This document shows, one piece after another, positions 1,888-9,766 of a stretch of 10,165 nucleotides of DNA. Positions within the stretch are counted from its first letter, which is position 1. Each line of letters opens with the position of its first letter. Position numbers and translations under genes: made by a program. A model generated the notes under the pieces. The model was not told the DNA's origin and did no database searches. It was given only the letters and a program-made list of their open reading frames with translations. The stretch spans positions 1 to 10,165 of the forward strand of contig JAFGBW010000207.1 of NCBI GenBank assembly GCA_016932965.1. The letters run 5' to 3'. The DNA comes from Candidatus Auribacterota bacterium. GTDB taxonomy: Bacteria > Auribacterota > JAFGBW01.

Positions 1888-2979
1888 CTAAACATTGAAC
1901 CGGAAAACACAGACATCCCCGTCCTCTAACTCGTAGGTTTTGCCTTCCAGCCTTAAAAGTCCCCTGTTTTTGGCTTCTGCATAACTTTTACAATCTGCCA
2001 AATCCTTATATTTGACGACTTCCGCTGCGATAAACCCCCGTTCAAAATCCGTATGAATAACCCCGGCTGCCTGGGGAGCCTTGGTGCCTTTTCTGACTGT
2101 CCAGGCACGGACCTCTTTCTCCCCGGCCGTTAAAAAAGTGATTAACCCCAAAAGGGAATACACTTCTTTAATTAAAAGATATCTTCCTGGAATTTTCAGA
2201 CCTACACTCTCCAGATACGCGGACCGTTCCTCTTCAGGGAGGTCTGTTAACTCGCATTCAAATTTCCCGCTGATGACGATCACAGCGGATTTTTCCTGCT
2301 GCGCGTACTCCATTACTTTTTTAGCTTTTTCCCCGCCATGGGGGAGGAGATTTTCCGAAACATTCGCCACATAAAGGACCGGTTTCTGGGTCAACAGGGC
2401 CAGATCCTTTATGAGGGCTTTTTCATTATCATCCAGATCCAGCTTCCTCACGGGGACACCCTGATCCAGGGCCTCCTTGACTTTTTTATAGACCGGAAAA
2501 TGGGTTTTGGCCTCTTCATCCTGATGGATGAGTTTTTCATATTTGGAATACCTTTTCCCTATTGTTTCCATGTCCTTGAAAATCAGTTCCATGTTGATGA
2601 CTTCAATATCGCGCAATGGATCCACGCTCCCGTTGACATGAACGATATTATCGTCTTCAAAACAGCGGACAATATGACAGACGGCGTCCACTTCCTTGAT
2701 ATGACCTAAAAATTGGTTGCCCAGACCTTCCCCCTGGGAGGCCCCTTTGACCAGCCCGGCGATATCGGAAAATTCCACGGTTGTGGGAATGGTTTTTTTG
2801 GGTTTAAAAATCTCCGTGAGGATATCCAGTCTTTCATCAGGGACGATCACCTGTCCCTGGTTGGGATCAATGGTACAAAAAGGGTAATTGGCGATTTCCG
2901 CCCCGGCGCCGGTTATCGCCTTGAAAATGGTTGACTTACCCACATTGGGAAGCCCAACCACTCCGCACTTTAAAGACAT
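1888..2979 (-). CDS. ychF: YchF/Ola1-family redox-regulated ATPase/GTPase
   Basis: YchF is a universally conserved TRAFAC P-loop NTPase of the Obg superfamily. It binds ribosomes and is linked to translation and oxidative-stress responses. The product is 363 residues, the usual length for the family. The G domain starts with GLPNVGKST (Walker A/G1, 9-17), and the G3 region reads [20 protein letters not shown]. The G4 motif is NVSE (206-209) rather than NKxD, the hallmark of YchF proteins that prefer ATP over GTP. A helical insertion (about 130-200) interrupts the G domain. The C-terminal TGS domain contains [19 protein letters not shown] and ends [11 protein letters not shown], a classic YchF terminus. 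The start is fixed by the motif spacing and by a strong Shine-Dalgarno. The gene is intact with a TAG stop. It is followed at 148 bp by mutL. Confidence 0.98.
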
Positions 2980-3104: not shown

Positions 3105-3314
3105 TTAGACAGGATATTAAATACCTATCCTCTCGTTTATTTTTACAAGGTAAAATTGATGAAAAACCCCGATTTTTCCCTTTCTCATAAACGTTTGAAG
3201 AAGACACTAATTGCTAAAAAATATACGAAGCCAATGATTTTTTCAGTAAAGTTTGTATCAGCCATGCTCCTAACTTGTTATCCCCAGCGTGTCCATCCTG
3301 TTAATCCTGTCTAA
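3105..3314. repeat. 210-bp segment with perfect 11-bp inverted ends (MITE-like candidate)
   Basis: TTAGACAGGAT at 3105-3115 is the exact reverse complement of ATCCTGTCTAA at 3304-3314. The right end is part of the dispersed ATCCTGT repeat. The segment contains a 51-codon ORF whose TAA is formed by the right end. It could be a small non-autonomous element, or two copies of the dispersed repeat lying in opposite orientation, the left one degenerate. No convincing target-site duplication is visible in the AT-rich flanks. Confidence 0.35.
3159..3314 (+). CDS. Small hypothetical ORF, 51 aa, possibly a truncated gene
   Basis: An ATG at 3159 is preceded by AAGG (3147-3150) at 8-nt spacing, a usable Shine-Dalgarno. 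The ORF runs 51 codons to the TAA at 3312-3314. The product has a basic N-terminal part (KRLKK, AKKYTK) followed by a short hydrophobic stretch, MIFSVKFVSAMLLTCYP, which resembles a signal or membrane segment with a Cys but no good lipobox. The last residues, HPVNPV, are encoded by the dispersed ATCCTGT repeat. It may therefore be the 5' remnant of an exported-protein gene cut by repeat insertion, or a chance ORF. No family is recognised. Confidence 0.25.
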   Translation: MKNPDFSLSHKRLKKTLIAKKYTKPMIFSVKFVSAMLLTCYPQRVHPVNPV

Positions 3315-3459: not shown

Positions 3460-6400
3460 ATGAACAGAAAAAAGATAACTTATATCTGCATCCTGGTATT
3501 GGGTCTGATCCCCCCGCCCGTAAGTGCCTCGGATTGCCGCTCTTTCTCATTGAGTCCGAGGTCCATGCTTCAGGACCTTTTCCTTCGTCTCAGTGAAACC
3601 CAAACAGATGAAAGTGAACGATTGAAAGTGGAGCAGGAATACGGCGGCCTCATTGTGCCGGAGGTGAAATCCATTCTTCTGGGGCTTGGTTCCTACACCA
3701 TAGAGGAAAGTTTAGATAATGAACAAGATGACATTCCGGTTAATATTGAAGTGAGCGATGAGGCTCACGATGCTGAAATTGAAAGAAATGCGGATCATAT
3801 CAGTTTGATGAATTACCTTCATGGAAGAGCGGAAAAAATTATAAAAGCGGGCAACTGCTCTTTTGACATGGAAAAAATGTATGAACAATTGAAGCAGATT
3901 CATCGGGCCAATCTCCGCATGGCTGCTGAAATGAAATGCCTGATCGACATGACCAATCCCTCAATCGATTTCACCTCCGACTTATACGGTGAATTTCGTG
4001 AAATATCCGGCCATATTGAAAGAGGGGGATATCAAAGGACCTATTATAAAGTTCTGAAAGATTATTATTCTCCTGCCACAGAAGAAGGGGACATTGCAGA
4101 ACAGATTGATCCTCAGATCTGGGAGAGATTACAAAGCCGTGGATGGGTAAAAATCATCAATGGCATCACCGTATTCACCCGGAATTTCACTGATGATGAG
4201 CTCCTTCAAATAGATGAAGCTTTAACAGGGATGGCTGTTCCTGATCTTCAGGGCCAAAAGGAGCTGCTCATGCAGGCCATTTTGTATCTTCAGAAAAAAA
4301 GAAACAGCAAGGCTCCTTCCAGGTTGTACATGAGCCGGCTGCTGGAATCCTCCAATCTGTCCCTGAACGGCCTGAGCAATATACTCACTGAAGTCATGAG
4401 GGCCTCTTCAAAGGTTAAAGCACATGCCACTGCAGACGAGAGACGGAATGAAATCTATAAAGCCCTGGGCCGGCTTTTAGCCGCCTATTTTTCCCAATCC
4501 GAGGACATGAAACACTGGAAGTTCGAATATGATGAGGTCCAGCGCAGGGTGAATGTGACGTTTGATAAGCCCGAACCCTATAACATGGGGGAAATCACCA
4601 TGTCATTCGCTTCCACGGAGCAGCCCGCTGCGATGGAAATGAACCGTGCCATTTCCTATCCGGATTTTTTCAGTTTGATAGCGTCACTCCCTAACACGCC
4701 GGATAATCTTTATGAGCTCAACCACAACCTAAGAATGGATCTGCCGGACCGGTCTGCGGATGAGGAAGACTTGAGAAAACAGGAATGGCTCTCTGCCTGC
4801 TCCCGATCCTGTGCTGAACTCACAAATACCGATCCCGGCCAGATTCAAAACGAATTGGCATCCAATCCATGGTTAAATGCCCTGGAAGCTGAAGAAATCA
4901 TTACCGGAGGGGGAAAAGTCGTTCTGATTGTGAAAGTCCGGCCGGGCTGTTCCCTCACTCTCAAAGATCACAGGGGCAATCCCGTCACCAAATATGCCGG
5001 GGACCGCATGGTGCTCAATATTCCCAGATACGGGACAAATAATGATGCCATGCGCTGGGACGCTTTCCGCATGGAAGCCTACCGATCCATGCAGATTGAT
5101 ATCCCCGGAGTGATGAAAACAATCGGATACAGCGGGAATGTGCTTATCACAGAATACATAGAAGGACAACCGGTTGACCAGCAAATCGGCATTCCTTCCA
5201 TGGTACAGCACCTCGAACAGGCATACCGGGAACTAAATGAGCTGCAGAAACAGCTCAAGGAACAACCCAGGACAGATGACCCATCCGGAACAAAGAGTGA
5301 TTTATCCGCAAGGATAGAGAAAAAAAAGCAAGACCTTCAGGATTTCTGCGATATTTATCCGGTTCGAATGGCGGAAATGCTGCTGCAGCTGATCCTCAGC
5401 CTTCAGTATCTGCATGACGAACTGGGGCTGTCCCACAATGATCTGAAATGGGAAAACATTTATTTATCTTCATTCAAAGGATTGATGCAATGGCTGACTC
5501 TTTTTGATTTTGGCTCCATGGGCTATCATGACATTTATAACCCTTACGCGATCCAGGCCACTCCGCAGGATTTTTTTGCCAGTGAACTGGTGGTGAGATC
5601 GAGAAATACTTCTCCAACCAGCGACATGTTTCTGGTCGGACAGATCCTATTTCATCTTATTTCAGGAGAAAAATATTTCTGGGATAACTTCCTGATCAAA
5701 CTGTTTCATAAAATCAGGGATCAGAAAGGACAAACCGTCCTGGCCATGCCGAATGCCCATGGCAATTTTTTTGAACCCCAGGAATGGATGAGTCAAATCA
5801 TCAAACTGACCGTGAATCGTGCCGCAAGCATCCAGGACCTGATAGAAAGTTCACCCGGCATCAGCGATCTGATAAAAACGGACGAAGAAACGGATTTATG
5901 CAACCCGGACAAGTGGAGGGAATTATTCGCCCGATTGAGCGAAGAAGAACTCCGTCTTTTCATGGAACTGGGAGACTCTCCTTTAAAACAGGAAACAACT
6001 GACCCGAGAATCTTCGCTCATGCTAATCTTTACACTCTCCTGGAAAAGCTTGAGAAATTTCAGGAGCTTGAAAAAAGATTCCAGGATTCAATCCAGGCAA
6101 AACTGGATGCCCTTTATTTATTGAAAAACAGCGTTCCGGAAGCCTTCAAACAAAGGGAGGCGAAGTTAACCCAGCTCTATGAAACTCATCTGTCTTTTCT
6201 GAATGATACACAGCAGCGGAACTCAATCCTTTTTGCAGGGAAACCTGTCTTCCTCGACGGCCCGGAACCGGCCTTAAAAGCCCAAATCCAGTATTTTCTG
6301 AACTCAACCCATAACATGACTCCTTTTACCCTTCTTTATTATGCCATGGAAAACACCCATAAGCCTCTTATTCAGCAAACGATTGAAGAAATCATCTCAG

Positions 6401-7641
6401 AAAAAGAACGCCCGCTGTATTCCAGGGCCCATATCACGGTTCAGAAAGAACTTGAACTCCGAAGCACGGTTGGACAATTCACAGCATCCACAGCGGATCT
6501 TCAACAACAGATGACCGCGCTTGAAAGCGCAGCCCCCGCCCTGCTGAAAAAATGGGGGGAACATTACCAGGTGACGGATGATGCGACAGAACGGGACGGG
6601 GTCCAGGACCAGTTCAAAGACGTTTTTTCCCTTTATCAAAAATGTTCACAGTCCTATCAGGAAGCCATGAATAATGTTGTGAGGACACTTGAACAGGCAT
6701 TCAATCAGATCATCGATCCCCAGGTACAGGCAGCCTTTTCTCAAACTGAAAGTAACCGCCTGGCAGAACTGATGGTCAGATTATCGGAAGCTTCAGCAGC
6801 CCTTCGGACTGCAACGGAAAAAGTCCGATCCTTCAGCATCGAATCCGCTGAATTAAGTGCAATCCTCAACCTCCAGGAAGCCTTGTTATCCGGTTTCAGC
6901 AAAGCAGCCCTGGCTTTTGGAGACCAACTGGATATTGAAATGAAAGTCGCCTCAAGGCTGACCATGACTTTTGACAATAATCCGCAGATGCAGCTGATCC
7001 ATTCTGTAATCCGGCACCTGTTGCGCAATGAGCCGGAAAAGAAAGATGCGGCTGCCTCACGCGTTGTGTATGACCTGATTGCCTATCTGACCCGTGGGAA
7101 TGCCTCCCGCATGCTGCAGATCAGAGAACCGGACGGAACCCCATCCGGACAAGATCAAACTCTTTTTGATTTGATCAAAAAATTCGGCCTGGTCCATGTG
7201 GTCATGAGCGATCCCTGGGGAGGGCATCCATACAAGGTCAAACCCCAGATTGAATTCAAATCCCTTTCGAATCCACATCAGCCGGGGCCTCCCAGTCAGA
7301 TCAGAAAATTTTCCGAACTATTCGCCGCAGAAGTAGCCAGACTGCACCTGACTTTAAAGAAAAGGATAGAAAAAGCGTCCCTGGATATTGAACAGAGAAC
7401 GGATCTGGCAGACGATGCTGCAAAGGACAGAGAAGAAGTAAGAATTAAAACGGAATGGAGTCTGACCGACGATGAAGAAAAATTCAAACGATTGTGGAAA
7501 GATGTGTACGGCATAACGGTTGAAGAATGGGAAGATTCCACTGCCAAAAAACTGGGCATGATAATATTAAGGCCCTCCTTTGAGCCTGTGTCGCGGCGAA
7601 CGCTAAGGCCTCCAAACCTTGTACCGCTCAGATCAGCCTGA
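3460..7641 (+). CDS. Large predicted exported protein with a divergent Hanks-type kinase domain
   Basis: The 1393-residue product starts at the ATG giving MNRKK, a hydrophobic core (about 6-18) and PPPVSAS, a typical signal peptide likely cut after residue 24 or so; no lipobox or other membrane segment is seen. Residues 30-475 are mostly helical and unrecognised. A protein-kinase fold spans about 480-760: N520 at the beta-3 Lys position, alpha-C Glu539, hinge TEYIEG (564-569), a charged coiled-coil-like insert (581-628), catalytic loop HNDLKWEN (659-666; Asp661, Lys663, Asn666), DFG (683-685), ATP/ASE (700-702, 707-709) and alpha-F SDMFLVG with Asp722. HRD is HND and no clear glycine loop is visible. 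Residues 760-1393 are helical with coiled-coil-like stretches (e.g. 858-889). The kinase fold is well supported; activity is not. Substrate, partners and role are unknown. No homologous neighbour clarifies its job. Confidence 0.85.
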   Translation: MNRKKITYICILVLGLIPPPVSASDCRSFSLSPRSMLQDLFLRLSETQTDESERLKVEQEYGGLIVPEVKSILLGLGSYTIEESLDNEQDDIPVNIEVSDEAHDAEIERNADHISLMNYLHGRAEKIIKAGNCSFDMEKMYEQLKQIHRANLRMAAEMKCLIDMTNPSIDFTSDLYGEFREISGHIERGGYQRTYYKVLKDYYSPATEEGDIAEQIDPQIWERLQSRGWVKIINGITVFTRNFTDDELLQIDEALTGMAVPDLQGQKELLMQAILYLQKKRNSKAPSRLYMSRLLESSNLSLNGLSNILTEVMRASSKVKAHATADERRNEIYKALGRLLAAYFSQSEDMKHWKFEYDEVQRRVNVTFDKPEPYNMGEITMSFASTEQPAAMEMNRAISYPDFFSLIASLPNTPDNLYELNHNLRMDLPDRSADEEDLRKQEWLSACSRSCAELTNTDPGQIQNELASNPWLNALEAEEIITGGGKVVLIVKVRPGCSLTLKDHRGNPVTKYAGDRMVLNIPRYGTNNDAMRWDAFRMEAYRSMQIDIPGVMKTIGYSGNVLITEYIEGQPVDQQIGIPSMVQHLEQAYRELNELQKQLKEQPRTDDPSGTKSDLSARIEKKKQDLQDFCDIYPVRMAEMLLQLILSLQYLHDELGLSHNDLKWENIYLSSFKGLMQWLTLFDFGSMGYHDIYNPYAIQATPQDFFASELVVRSRNTSPTSDMFLVGQILFHLISGEKYFWDNFLIKLFHKIRDQKGQTVLAMPNAHGNFFEPQEWMSQIIKLTVNRAASIQDLIESSPGISDLIKTDEETDLCNPDKWRELFARLSEEELRLFMELGDSPLKQETTDPRIFAHANLYTLLEKLEKFQELEKRFQDSIQAKLDALYLLKNSVPEAFKQREAKLTQLYETHLSFLNDTQQRNSILFAGKPVFLDGPEPALKAQIQYFLNSTHNMTPFTLLYYAMENTHKPLIQQTIEEIISEKERPLYSRAHITVQKELELRSTVGQFTASTADLQQQMTALESAAPALLKKWGEHYQVTDDATERDGVQDQFKDVFSLYQKCSQSYQEAMNNVVRTLEQAFNQIIDPQVQAAFSQTESNRLAELMVRLSEASAALRTATEKVRSFSIESAELSAILNLQEALLSGFSKAALAFGDQLDIEMKVASRLTMTFDNNPQMQLIHSVIRHLLRNEPEKKDAAASRVVYDLIAYLTRGNASRMLQIREPDGTPSGQDQTLFDLIKKFGLVHVVMSDPWGGHPYKVKPQIEFKSLSNPHQPGPPSQIRKFSELFAAEVARLHLTLKKRIEKASLDIEQRTDLADDAAKDREEVRIKTEWSLTDDEEKFKRLWKDVYGITVEEWEDSTAKKLGMIILRPSFEPVSRRTLRPPNLVPLRSA

Positions 7642-7801: not shown

Positions 7802-9766
7802 TTATTCATACCGCAGTGCCTCTACCGGGTTCATGCGGGAGGCCTGTCTGGCAGGCCAGACCCCGAAGACCACTCCGATGAGGATGGAAAAGGAGGTGGA
7901 AACCAGAACCGATTGCAAAGACACTTTTGTGGCCCATCCGGCAATCAGTGACAAGGATTTCGCGATTCCCCACCCAAATGCGATTCCGATGCATCCTCCC
8001 AAAACCGTCATCATCACCGCCTCAATCAGGAATTGAATGAGGAGGTCCCCGCTTCCCGCCCCAATGGCTTTTCTAAGGCCTATTTCCTTTGTCCGTTCCG
8101 TGACGGAAACCAGCATGATATTCATGATCCCGATTCCGCCGACCAGAAGGGAAATAGCCGCGATGAAACCCAGAAGAAGGGTCATGGTGGTCGTCGTGCT
8201 CTCCAGGGTCTCCTGGATTTCAGCCATGTTCCGGATCTCAAAATTATCTTCGGCATCCTTGGCCAGATGAGCCCTTTTCCGGATGACATCACGCATGGCC
8301 TTTTGGGCTTCCTCCATCAGATTGGAGTCCTTTATTTCCACGTCAATGGAATCAACATATTCCTTGCCAAGGAGCCTGTACATGGCCGTGGTAATGGGGA
8401 TCACCACCACATCATCCTGATCGCGCCAGCCCCCGGACCCTTTTTCCGGCAGAATACCTATGACTTTAAAATTGATCCGGTTGATCTTGACATCCCTTCC
8501 CAACGGGTTTTCGTTTTCAAACAAATTATTAACAACGGTCGCACCCAGGACCACGACCTTGGCGCGGCTTCGGACCTCCTCGTCGGTAAAAAACCTGCCT
8601 ATTTTTGGCACCGAGGCCCTCATGGCGGCATAAGAAGATTCATTTCCCTGGACGGTTGTGTTCCAGTTTTTATTTTTATACACCATCTGACCGCGTCCAC
8701 GGACACTGCAGGAAGTCCGTTTCACCTGGGGAAGCTTCAAAAGCGCTTCTGAATCCTGGAGGGTAAAACGGGTAACCGCCCCCGCCTCCATCGCCACACC
8801 ATGAAGACGGCGCGATCCGGGAGAAACAGACAAAAGGTTCGAACCCAACGAAGCCAGTCTCTGGGAAATGGATTCCTTGGCGCCTTCTCCCAAAGCCAGC
8901 ATGGCAATGACCGCTGTGACGCCGATCGTGATGCCGAGCATGGAAAGAAAGGAACGCAGTTTATGGGAAAAAATGGCGTGCAGCGCCTGGCGGCAATGAT
9001 CAAAAAAATGCGCACCCATGCCCGAAGATCGGATCTCCTTCATCAAGGAGCCTACCGATACGGCATTTTCTGCAGTCGGGGAATTGGATGGCCCGTGTTT
9101 GACCGTCTCATCAGAGAGAATTTTTCCATCCCGCATGGTGATGATCCGCCTGGCCCGGACAGCCACCTCCTTTTCATGCGTGACCATGATGATGGTGATC
9201 CCCTGGCGGTTCAACGATTCCAATACCTTGATGATTTCCTCCTCGGTTTTGGAATCCAGATTTCCCGTCGGCTCATCCGCAAACAGAACAAGAGGGTCAT
9301 TGACCAATGCCCTGGCAATGGCCACGCGCTGCTGCTCTCCTCCGGAAAGCTCATTCGGCCGGTGCTTCATACGGGGTCCCAATCCCACTTCTTCCAGTCT
9401 CTTCAGGGCCTTTTCCTTCAACTTACGTTTTCCGGCATAAACCAAAGGCAGTTCCACGTTTTCAAGGGCCGTGACACGGGATAGAAGATGAAACTGCTGA
9501 AACACAAAACCAGCCAGCGTATTCCTCAAGACAGCCAGTTCCCTGTCCTTAAAAACGCTTACTTCTTCCCCGCCGATCGAATAAGAACCGGAATCCGGCT
9601 TGTCCAATAAGCCTAAAATGTGAAGGAGCGTGGATTTCCCGGAGCCCGAAGCTCCCATGATGGCCACAAACTCCCCCCGTCCGATCGAAAGAGAAACATC
9701 CGACAGAGCCTGAACCTGCACGGCCCCCATCTGATAAGTCTTTTTAATATGCTGAAGCTGAATCAT
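7802..9766 (-). CDS. macB: MacB-family ABC transporter ATP-binding/permease protein
   Basis: MacB is an inner-membrane ABC protein that drives a tripartite pump with a MacA-type adaptor and a TolC-type channel, using a periplasmic stalk to expel substrates. At 654 residues this matches the family (E. coli about 648). The nucleotide-binding domain has Walker A GASGSGKS (38-45), Q-loop Gln90/91, signature LSGGE (140-144), Walker B LFADE with Glu165, D-loop NLDS and switch His197. TM1 lies near 273-292, the periplasmic domain spans about 293-527, and three C-terminal helices lie near 528-551, 575-602 and 620-637. It ends NPVEALRYE, typical of the family. The start is set by the NBD N-terminus, but no Shine-Dalgarno precedes it and a 20-bp hairpin ends 17 nt upstream. 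The substrate cannot be read from sequence; macrolides are only the namesake. No macA is in the window. Confidence 0.95.
   Translation of the reverse strand: MIQLQHIKKTYQMGAVQVQALSDVSLSIGRGEFVAIMGASGSGKSTLLHILGLLDKPDSGSYSIGGEEVSVFKDRELAVLRNTLAGFVFQQFHLLSRVTALENVELPLVYAGKRKLKEKALKRLEEVGLGPRMKHRPNELSGGEQQRVAIARALVNDPLVLFADEPTGNLDSKTEEEIIKVLESLNRQGITIIMVTHEKEVAVRARRIITMRDGKILSDETVKHGPSNSPTAENAVSVGSLMKEIRSSGMGAHFFDHCRQALHAIFSHKLRSFLSMLGITIGVTAVIAMLALGEGAKESISQRLASLGSNLLSVSPGSRRLHGVAMEAGAVTRFTLQDSEALLKLPQVKRTSCSVRGRGQMVYKNKNWNTTVQGNESSYAAMRASVPKIGRFFTDEEVRSRAKVVVLGATVVNNLFENENPLGRDVKINRINFKVIGILPEKGSGGWRDQDDVVVIPITTAMYRLLGKEYVDSIDVEIKDSNLMEEAQKAMRDVIRKRAHLAKDAEDNFEIRNMAEIQETLESTTTTMTLLLGFIAAISLLVGGIGIMNIMLVSVTERTKEIGLRKAIGAGSGDLLIQFLIEAVMMTVLGGCIGIAFGWGIAKSLSLIAGWATKVSLQSVLVSTSFSILIGVVFGVWPARQASRMNPVEALRYE

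Follow-up and report, generated by a model that had tools for sequence, protein, structure and literature searches.

An apparently exported kinase-fold protein of an Auribacterota bacterium carries a two-ended sequence tag shared with other apparently exported enzymes of its genome

Introduction

What would a bacterium do with a protein kinase fold outside its own cytosol? Exported proteins normally avoid chemistry that depends on ATP, S-adenosylmethionine (SAM) or acetyl-CoA, since the periplasm is without those cofactors. The question is raised by contig JAFGBW010000207.1 of Candidatus Auribacterota bacterium (assembly GCA_016932965.1), which we analysed over its whole length of 10,165 nucleotides (the window; contig C287 of genome G000 in our numbering) and which is part of a 3.14 Mb metagenome-assembled genome (MAG) that is 92.6% complete. 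It encodes a protein of 1393 residues (P0001) that an earlier note, made from the DNA letters alone, had described as a signal peptide followed by a central kinase fold between long flanks of no recognisable family. The open reading frame (ORF) is intact, and composition, Pfam and AlphaFold2 (AF2) bear out the signal-peptide-like leader and the kinase fold. We find in addition that P0001 belongs to a set of proteins from the same genome that share a short motif behind the leader and a short C-terminal end, and we suggest that this two-ended tag may route cytosol-type enzymes to a place outside the producer's cytosol. The tagged set of exported enzymes appears to have gone unnoticed before, and a search of the open-access literature found no comparable tag.

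Results

A tag at both protein ends

PF00069 matches about twenty kinases of this genome with better scores and four with low scores; the four lie on contigs C196, C182, C19 and C287, and exactly these four have a signal-peptide-like leader with LxPxS in common behind it. A fifth tagged kinase, L133:960-2030, is too weak for the PF00069 cut-off. The earlier note had offered P0001 as an effector-like protein or a pseudokinase scaffold; both fit, but it is no lone oddity, being one of five divergent tagged kinases. One other weak kinase match, L333:905-2728 on contig C294, lacks the tag and was set aside: it proved to be glycosyltransferase-like, with a kinase-like domain (HHDLKASN loop) at its C-terminus.

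Tag statistics were drawn from 985 kb of the genome (about 31%), on contigs partly chosen for kinases and mostly taken in index order. Of 250 signal-peptide-like ORFs, 29 have the pattern L[AS]P.[ST] no more than 50 residues behind the leader, and among the 485 other ORFs it occurs in 8; a shuffled-window control yielded a mean of 0.97 and a maximum of 5 over 300 trials, and rearranged versions of the motif gave 0-1 matches. When short patterns were counted without bias, LAP.S, LAP.T and LSP.S ranked top in this genome, and the same count returned no patterns like these in G001, G002 or other genomes of the phylum.

The C-terminal half of the tag is as short: most tagged proteins have SA, AA, SS or SG as their last two residues. 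Under a looser definition of the N-terminal tag, an [SA][ASG] end closes 29 of 45 N-tagged ORFs, as compared with 22 among the 624 others (Fisher p about 1e-25, a value that is not that of a prior hypothesis, the motif having been noticed by inspection of the data). Eleven N-tag false positives, such as a BtuF-type binding protein with LAPATTE inside its mature domain, were removed by hand, and in the curated set the proportion is 29/34. Read from the other end, the N-terminal motif is present in 21 of the 26 ORFs that finish in [SA]A; among the remainder it is present in 16 of 580. Of 709 complete ORFs of this genome, 30 have both ends, where 3.5 would be expected if they were independent; among 957 ORFs drawn from G001 and G002, other genomes of the phylum, 80 named loci and viral contigs, none has both. 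The size of the C-terminal effect and its absence elsewhere make chance a very unlikely explanation. The last codons of tagged ORFs vary (GCC, GCA, GCT, GCG; TCN, AGT, GCN), which argues that the C-terminus is selected as protein and not as a DNA site. With LSPRS behind its leader and an LRSA end, P0001 qualifies for the set at both of its ends. Rough extrapolation to the whole genome would put the set at about a hundred proteins. On these statistics the tag stands, apparently as a feature of this lineage, and we infer where its bearers go and what they do there.

Leader and topology

Export calls, for P0001 and for the tagged set, follow composition rules. The sole strongly hydrophobic region of P0001 is residues 5-24, where a positively charged N-terminus, MNRKK, gives way to ITYICILVLGLIPPPVSA; on the Kyte-Doolittle scale the remaining 19-residue windows all score 1.23 or less, in agreement with the earlier claim that no further membrane segment follows. 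Leaders of tagged proteins have a positive N side and a hydrophobic run of 11-23 residues. Such N-side-positive leaders should leave the protein bodies facing outward, so that the tagged proteins are likely to be exported by Sec in that orientation.

Hanks-type receptors combine a cytosolic kinase with a transmembrane anchor, and in P0001 the only hydrophobic segment that could be such an anchor is the N-terminal, N-side-positive leader. It is conceivable that the leader is merely a membrane anchor and the kinase cytosolic, as in ordinary Hanks-type kinases, and four proteins of the same genome (L123, L124, L128 and L132) do consist of an N-terminal hydrophobic segment and then a canonical kinase. 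These four, however, are without LxPxS and score as canonical kinases, whereas the leader of P0001 has a PPP stretch inside it and Val-Ser-Ala at its end besides the positive N side. We regard an anchor as distinctly improbable.

A signal-peptide kinase had been called unusual; for the phylum this does not hold. Its other families have kinase domains in giant ORFs (6202 residues and five or more kinase domains in one; 7037, 5103, 4551 and 3074 residues in others). Most of those whose start was fetched have a signal-peptide-like leader, and exported kinase folds are thus common in the phylum. Individual loci illustrate the range. L146 (G007:C10:183500-203499) holds an ORF of about 6200 residues that starts with a signal-peptide-like leader and includes five or more kinase domains, whose catalytic loops read HND or FND; by eye, its N-terminal region resembles those of the giant ORFs of G005, G015, G016 and G017 (ELG...QDxHxNxxAQ). 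L149 (G007:C19:306500-326499) is a section of a partly fetched open frame of 28,618 residues with a degenerate kinase domain. L354 (G017:C274) is a 5103-residue ORF with kinase-like and dikinase (PPDK_N-like) stretches, which in the P0001 genome are separate tagged proteins.

Cytosol-type enzymes among the tagged proteins

Pfam assigns to the tagged set the five kinase-fold proteins, alpha-glucan water dikinase, uridine kinase with CYTH, a P-loop protein and a weakly matched NDK-like protein; radical SAM, isochorismatase, GNAT, weakly PrmA-like, amidohydrolase and Asp/Glu racemase proteins; and AAA+ and WD40 proteins of more than 2700 residues whose C-termini lie beyond contig ends. Many members are without a family. 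Some of the enzymes have intact motifs, among them the CxxxCxxC of radical SAM and Walker A. Signal peptides are present on two alpha-glucan water dikinases (L226:301-3648 on C82 and L361 on C219), a type of enzyme described chiefly in plant plastids; they are 57% identical, and LAPSHS is kept in both inside otherwise diverged leaders, which suggests selection on the motif. A shorter neighbour, L226:3664-5340, has the N-terminal Ig-like domain only.

Tagged genes cluster. On C37 (L256, 980-15778) nine N-tagged genes lie within 16.5 kb, most of them ending in -SA, -AA or -SS, and GNAT, methyltransferase-like and amidohydrolase proteins are among their products. On C2 (L214, 1583-12084) seven tagged genes encode NDK-like, P-loop, radical SAM, isochorismatase and uridine kinase-CYTH proteins and an 848-residue protein without a family. 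The kinase gene of the window, unlike these, is solitary.

The tagged enzymes need ATP, SAM or acetyl-CoA, and their destination should thus be cytosol-like without being the producer's cytosol. One such place would be inside the bacterium: a membrane-bounded compartment with ATP in its lumen, similar to the anammoxosome, where the kinase would regulate resident enzymes. With dikinases, uridine kinase-CYTH, radical SAM, isochorismatase, racemase, methyltransferase, kinase and WD40 proteins among its members, the tagged set does resemble a small proteome for metabolism and signalling. We know of no report of an internal organelle of this kind in the source lineage, and no marker of one was seen, no search for compartment markers having been made. 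Anammox bacteria have signal peptides on internal-compartment proteins; these are canonical, and an organelle-specific sorting signal has been elusive, no N- or C-terminal one having been found, unlike the tag described here (PMC2881027). We consider an internal compartment rather unlikely and rank it second, behind delivery into another cell.

A kinase fold with a possibly displaced lysine

PF00069 matches only the C-lobe of P0001 (residues 636-765, E=4.5e-13, above the cut-off). Residues 441-815 were aligned with 25 kinases from viral contigs and their structure was then predicted (predicted local distance difference test, pLDDT, 70.4; predicted template modelling score, pTM, 0.66). The model runs from a stranded N-lobe with an extra hairpin through helix C, a long helical insertion and the catalytic loop to the C-lobe. 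Foldseek matches it to PknA/PknB and eukaryotic kinases with a probability of 1.00, and VIA to PknA (4ow8) with Z 16.4 and 3.2 Å over 220 residues. The structure prediction and Foldseek search that the earlier note had proposed thereby add an N-lobe to the C-lobe already recognised, and a bilobal kinase fold is established as far as prediction permits. The best phmmer matches, ULK3, CaMK and others, have weak scores.

The residues listed earlier for the active site (D661, K663, N666, DFG 683-685, E709, D722 and G727) are all in place, and D661, K663, N666, D683, G685, E709 and D722 are invariant across a ten-kinase alignment. Of the defining active-site residues, the catalytic-loop Asp and Asn and the DFG Asp are present (D661, N666, D683), and the beta3 lysine is replaced by Asn520. 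By fold, P0001 belongs to the protein kinase superfamily; it lacks one of these residues, and its active site is not canonical. Lys486, which opens strand beta2 in the AF2 model, may do the job of the absent lysine. With-no-lysine (WNK) kinases have likewise lost the beta3 lysine and have a lysine at the third-glycine position, at the start of beta2; WNK1 is active, with Lys233 supplied from beta2 (PMC4718504). The sequence kinship seen goes no further than the general kinase fold, and we make no claim of WNK descent; the lysine swap is read from an alignment, not from a solved structure. The domain may be an active WNK-like kinase or a pseudokinase, and its sequence is compatible with both.

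A periplasmic or surface pseudokinase, serving as a structural or ligand-binding scaffold with no need for ATP and with the tag as a surface-retention signal, would suit an ATP-poor periplasm, the long flanks of P0001 and the missing lysine, which by eye is apparently also gone from the tagged paralogues L136 (His) and L138 (Pro). Yet the metal- and catalysis-linked residues of P0001 are all retained, the paralogue L137 has the full glycine loop and the lysine, and many other tagged proteins are nucleotide-dependent enzymes. On balance we think such a scaffold unlikely. The three lysine-less tagged kinases have a suggestive N-lobe motif in common (GGxK/R, then a VxxxPR-like beta3), for which we do not claim homology (BLASTP E=0.48).

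The gene, its flanks and its neighbours

Searches with the whole protein, residues 24-470 or residues 790-1393 found no relatives in 44 phylum genomes, genome_contigs or viral_contigs, and none beyond the kinase core in 20 named genomes; G025 and G027 gave weak matches only, 55-75 residues long (E 0.007-0.04). The flanks were thus rightly described as having no recognisable family. Modelled alone, the N-terminal flank reached an AF2 pLDDT of 41, which is uninterpretable, and was not used. The reading frame extends from ATG 3460 to TGA 7641; an in-frame GTG at 3289 would give a product 57 residues longer, and the position of the leader favours the ATG. The neighbouring genes all lie on the opposite strand (Table 1). 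In a tree made with MutL to position the organism, its sequence sat on a long branch without a secure placement.

Table 1. Features of the window, with coordinates on the contig
Feature	Position	Strand	Basis
Tag, N-terminal half, L31-S-P-R-S35	3550..3564	+	L[AS]P.[ST] over-represented after signal peptides in this genome
Tag, C-terminal half, Ser1392-Ala1393-COOH (...LRSA*)	7633..7638	+	Shared C-terminal ends
Coding sequence, exported kinase-fold protein of 1393 residues (P0001)	3460..7641	+	ORF open and complete; no homologue outside kinase domain
Signal peptide-like leader, residues 1-23, MNRKKITYICILVLGLIPPPVSA, cleavage likely after Ala23	3460..3528	+	Composition only
N-terminal flank, residues 36-470, without known relative	3565..4869	+	Pfam and homology searches
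Protein kinase domain, residues about 476-800	4885..5859	+	Pfam; AF2; Foldseek; VIA Z 16.4
Glycine-rich loop GGGK, Gly483-Lys486; Lys486 at third-glycine place	4906..4917	+	Alignments A1, A3
Asn520 where beta3 (VAIK) lysine expected	5017..5019	+	Alignment A3 (column at least 90% Lys, 26 kinases); strand in AF2 model
Glu539, alpha-C glutamate	5074..5076	+	Alignment; helix in AF2 model
Long helical insertion, hinge to catalytic loop, residues about 581-655 including helix E	5200..5424	+	Alignment, AF2 model
Catalytic loop H-N-D-L-K-W-E-N, residues 659-666; HND instead of HRD	5434..5457	+	Sequence, alignment
DFG, residues 683-685	5506..5514	+	Sequence, alignment
C-terminal flank, residues 801-1391, without known relative	5860..7632	+	Pfam and homology searches
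mutL, ordinary neighbour, incomplete at contig end	3..1739	-	Pfam
ychF GTPase, ordinary neighbour	1888..2979	-	Pfam
MacB-type ABC transporter/permease, ordinary neighbour	7802..9766	-	Pfam

Discussion

We lean, by a little, towards an undescribed sorting system that would read its cargo at both ends (L[AS]Px[ST]; -SA/-AA) and deliver about a hundred cytosol-type enzymes, divergent with-no-lysine kinases included, to a nucleotide-containing compartment outside the cytosol, be it the cell of another organism or an organelle. The narrower proposal, that the tag directs such enzymes, the kinase among them, beyond the producer's cytosol to a place that contains ATP and is most likely a prey or host cell, is tentative, and we would put it somewhat short of an even chance. 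Under this proposal the Sec machinery would export P0001, and a dedicated sorting machine in the envelope would read both tag ends and pass it on to a site that contains ATP, most likely the prey or host cytosol, in the company of other enzymes that depend on ATP, SAM or acetyl-CoA. There the kinase domain would phosphorylate or bind target proteins chosen by the long flanks, with Lys486 standing in for the beta3 lysine in WNK fashion.

Five secretin matches in the genome count in favour of this proposal. Several points weigh against delivery into another cell. The evidence comes from one MAG, and neither a delivery machine nor a receptor was found. A search of the phylum for ATP/ADP translocases, made without a positive control, was empty. 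Glucan water dikinase, radical SAM and uridine kinase would be unusual effectors, and an internal compartment fits them equally well. The kinase domain, lacking its beta3 lysine, may also be dead.

Among known systems, PknA/PknB (PF00069, Hanks-type) provide the best structural matches, with the same bilobal fold, catalytic Asp, Lys and Asn, DFG, APE-like Glu709 and alphaF Asp722; P0001 differs in its leader without a later anchor, HND, Asn520, long helical insertion and orphan flanks. Fam20, VLK, Toxoplasma ROP/WNG, Salmonella SteC and Legionella effector kinases likewise have a kinase fold that works outside the producer's cytosol, but they have other export routes and belong to other families. 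We know of no two-ended tag in any of them. The host-targeting motifs PEXEL of Plasmodium and RxLR of oomycetes, both eukaryotic, offer an analogy in that a short motif slightly behind the signal peptide serves many unrelated cargoes; their motifs are different and have no conserved C-terminal dipeptide.

The giant ORFs of the phylum, which reach 28,618 residues, hold kinase and dikinase domains and in several cases have signal-peptide-like leaders, resemble the giant proteins of Omnitrophota and related bacteria, whereas in the genome studied here such domains are on separate tagged proteins of ordinary to large size. Giant proteins and predation have been proposed for Omnitrophota (PMC10066038) and relatives (PMC12057145), which we do not use as support.

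Dozens of cofactor-dependent enzymes that share one tag in one uncultured bacterium imply a destination rich in cofactors that is not the bacterium's own cytosol. The tag supplies a list of cargo and a handle for finding the sorting machine, and it makes a question testable: whether this organism practises predation or parasitism by delivered enzymes, or has a bacterial organelle with its own targeting code.

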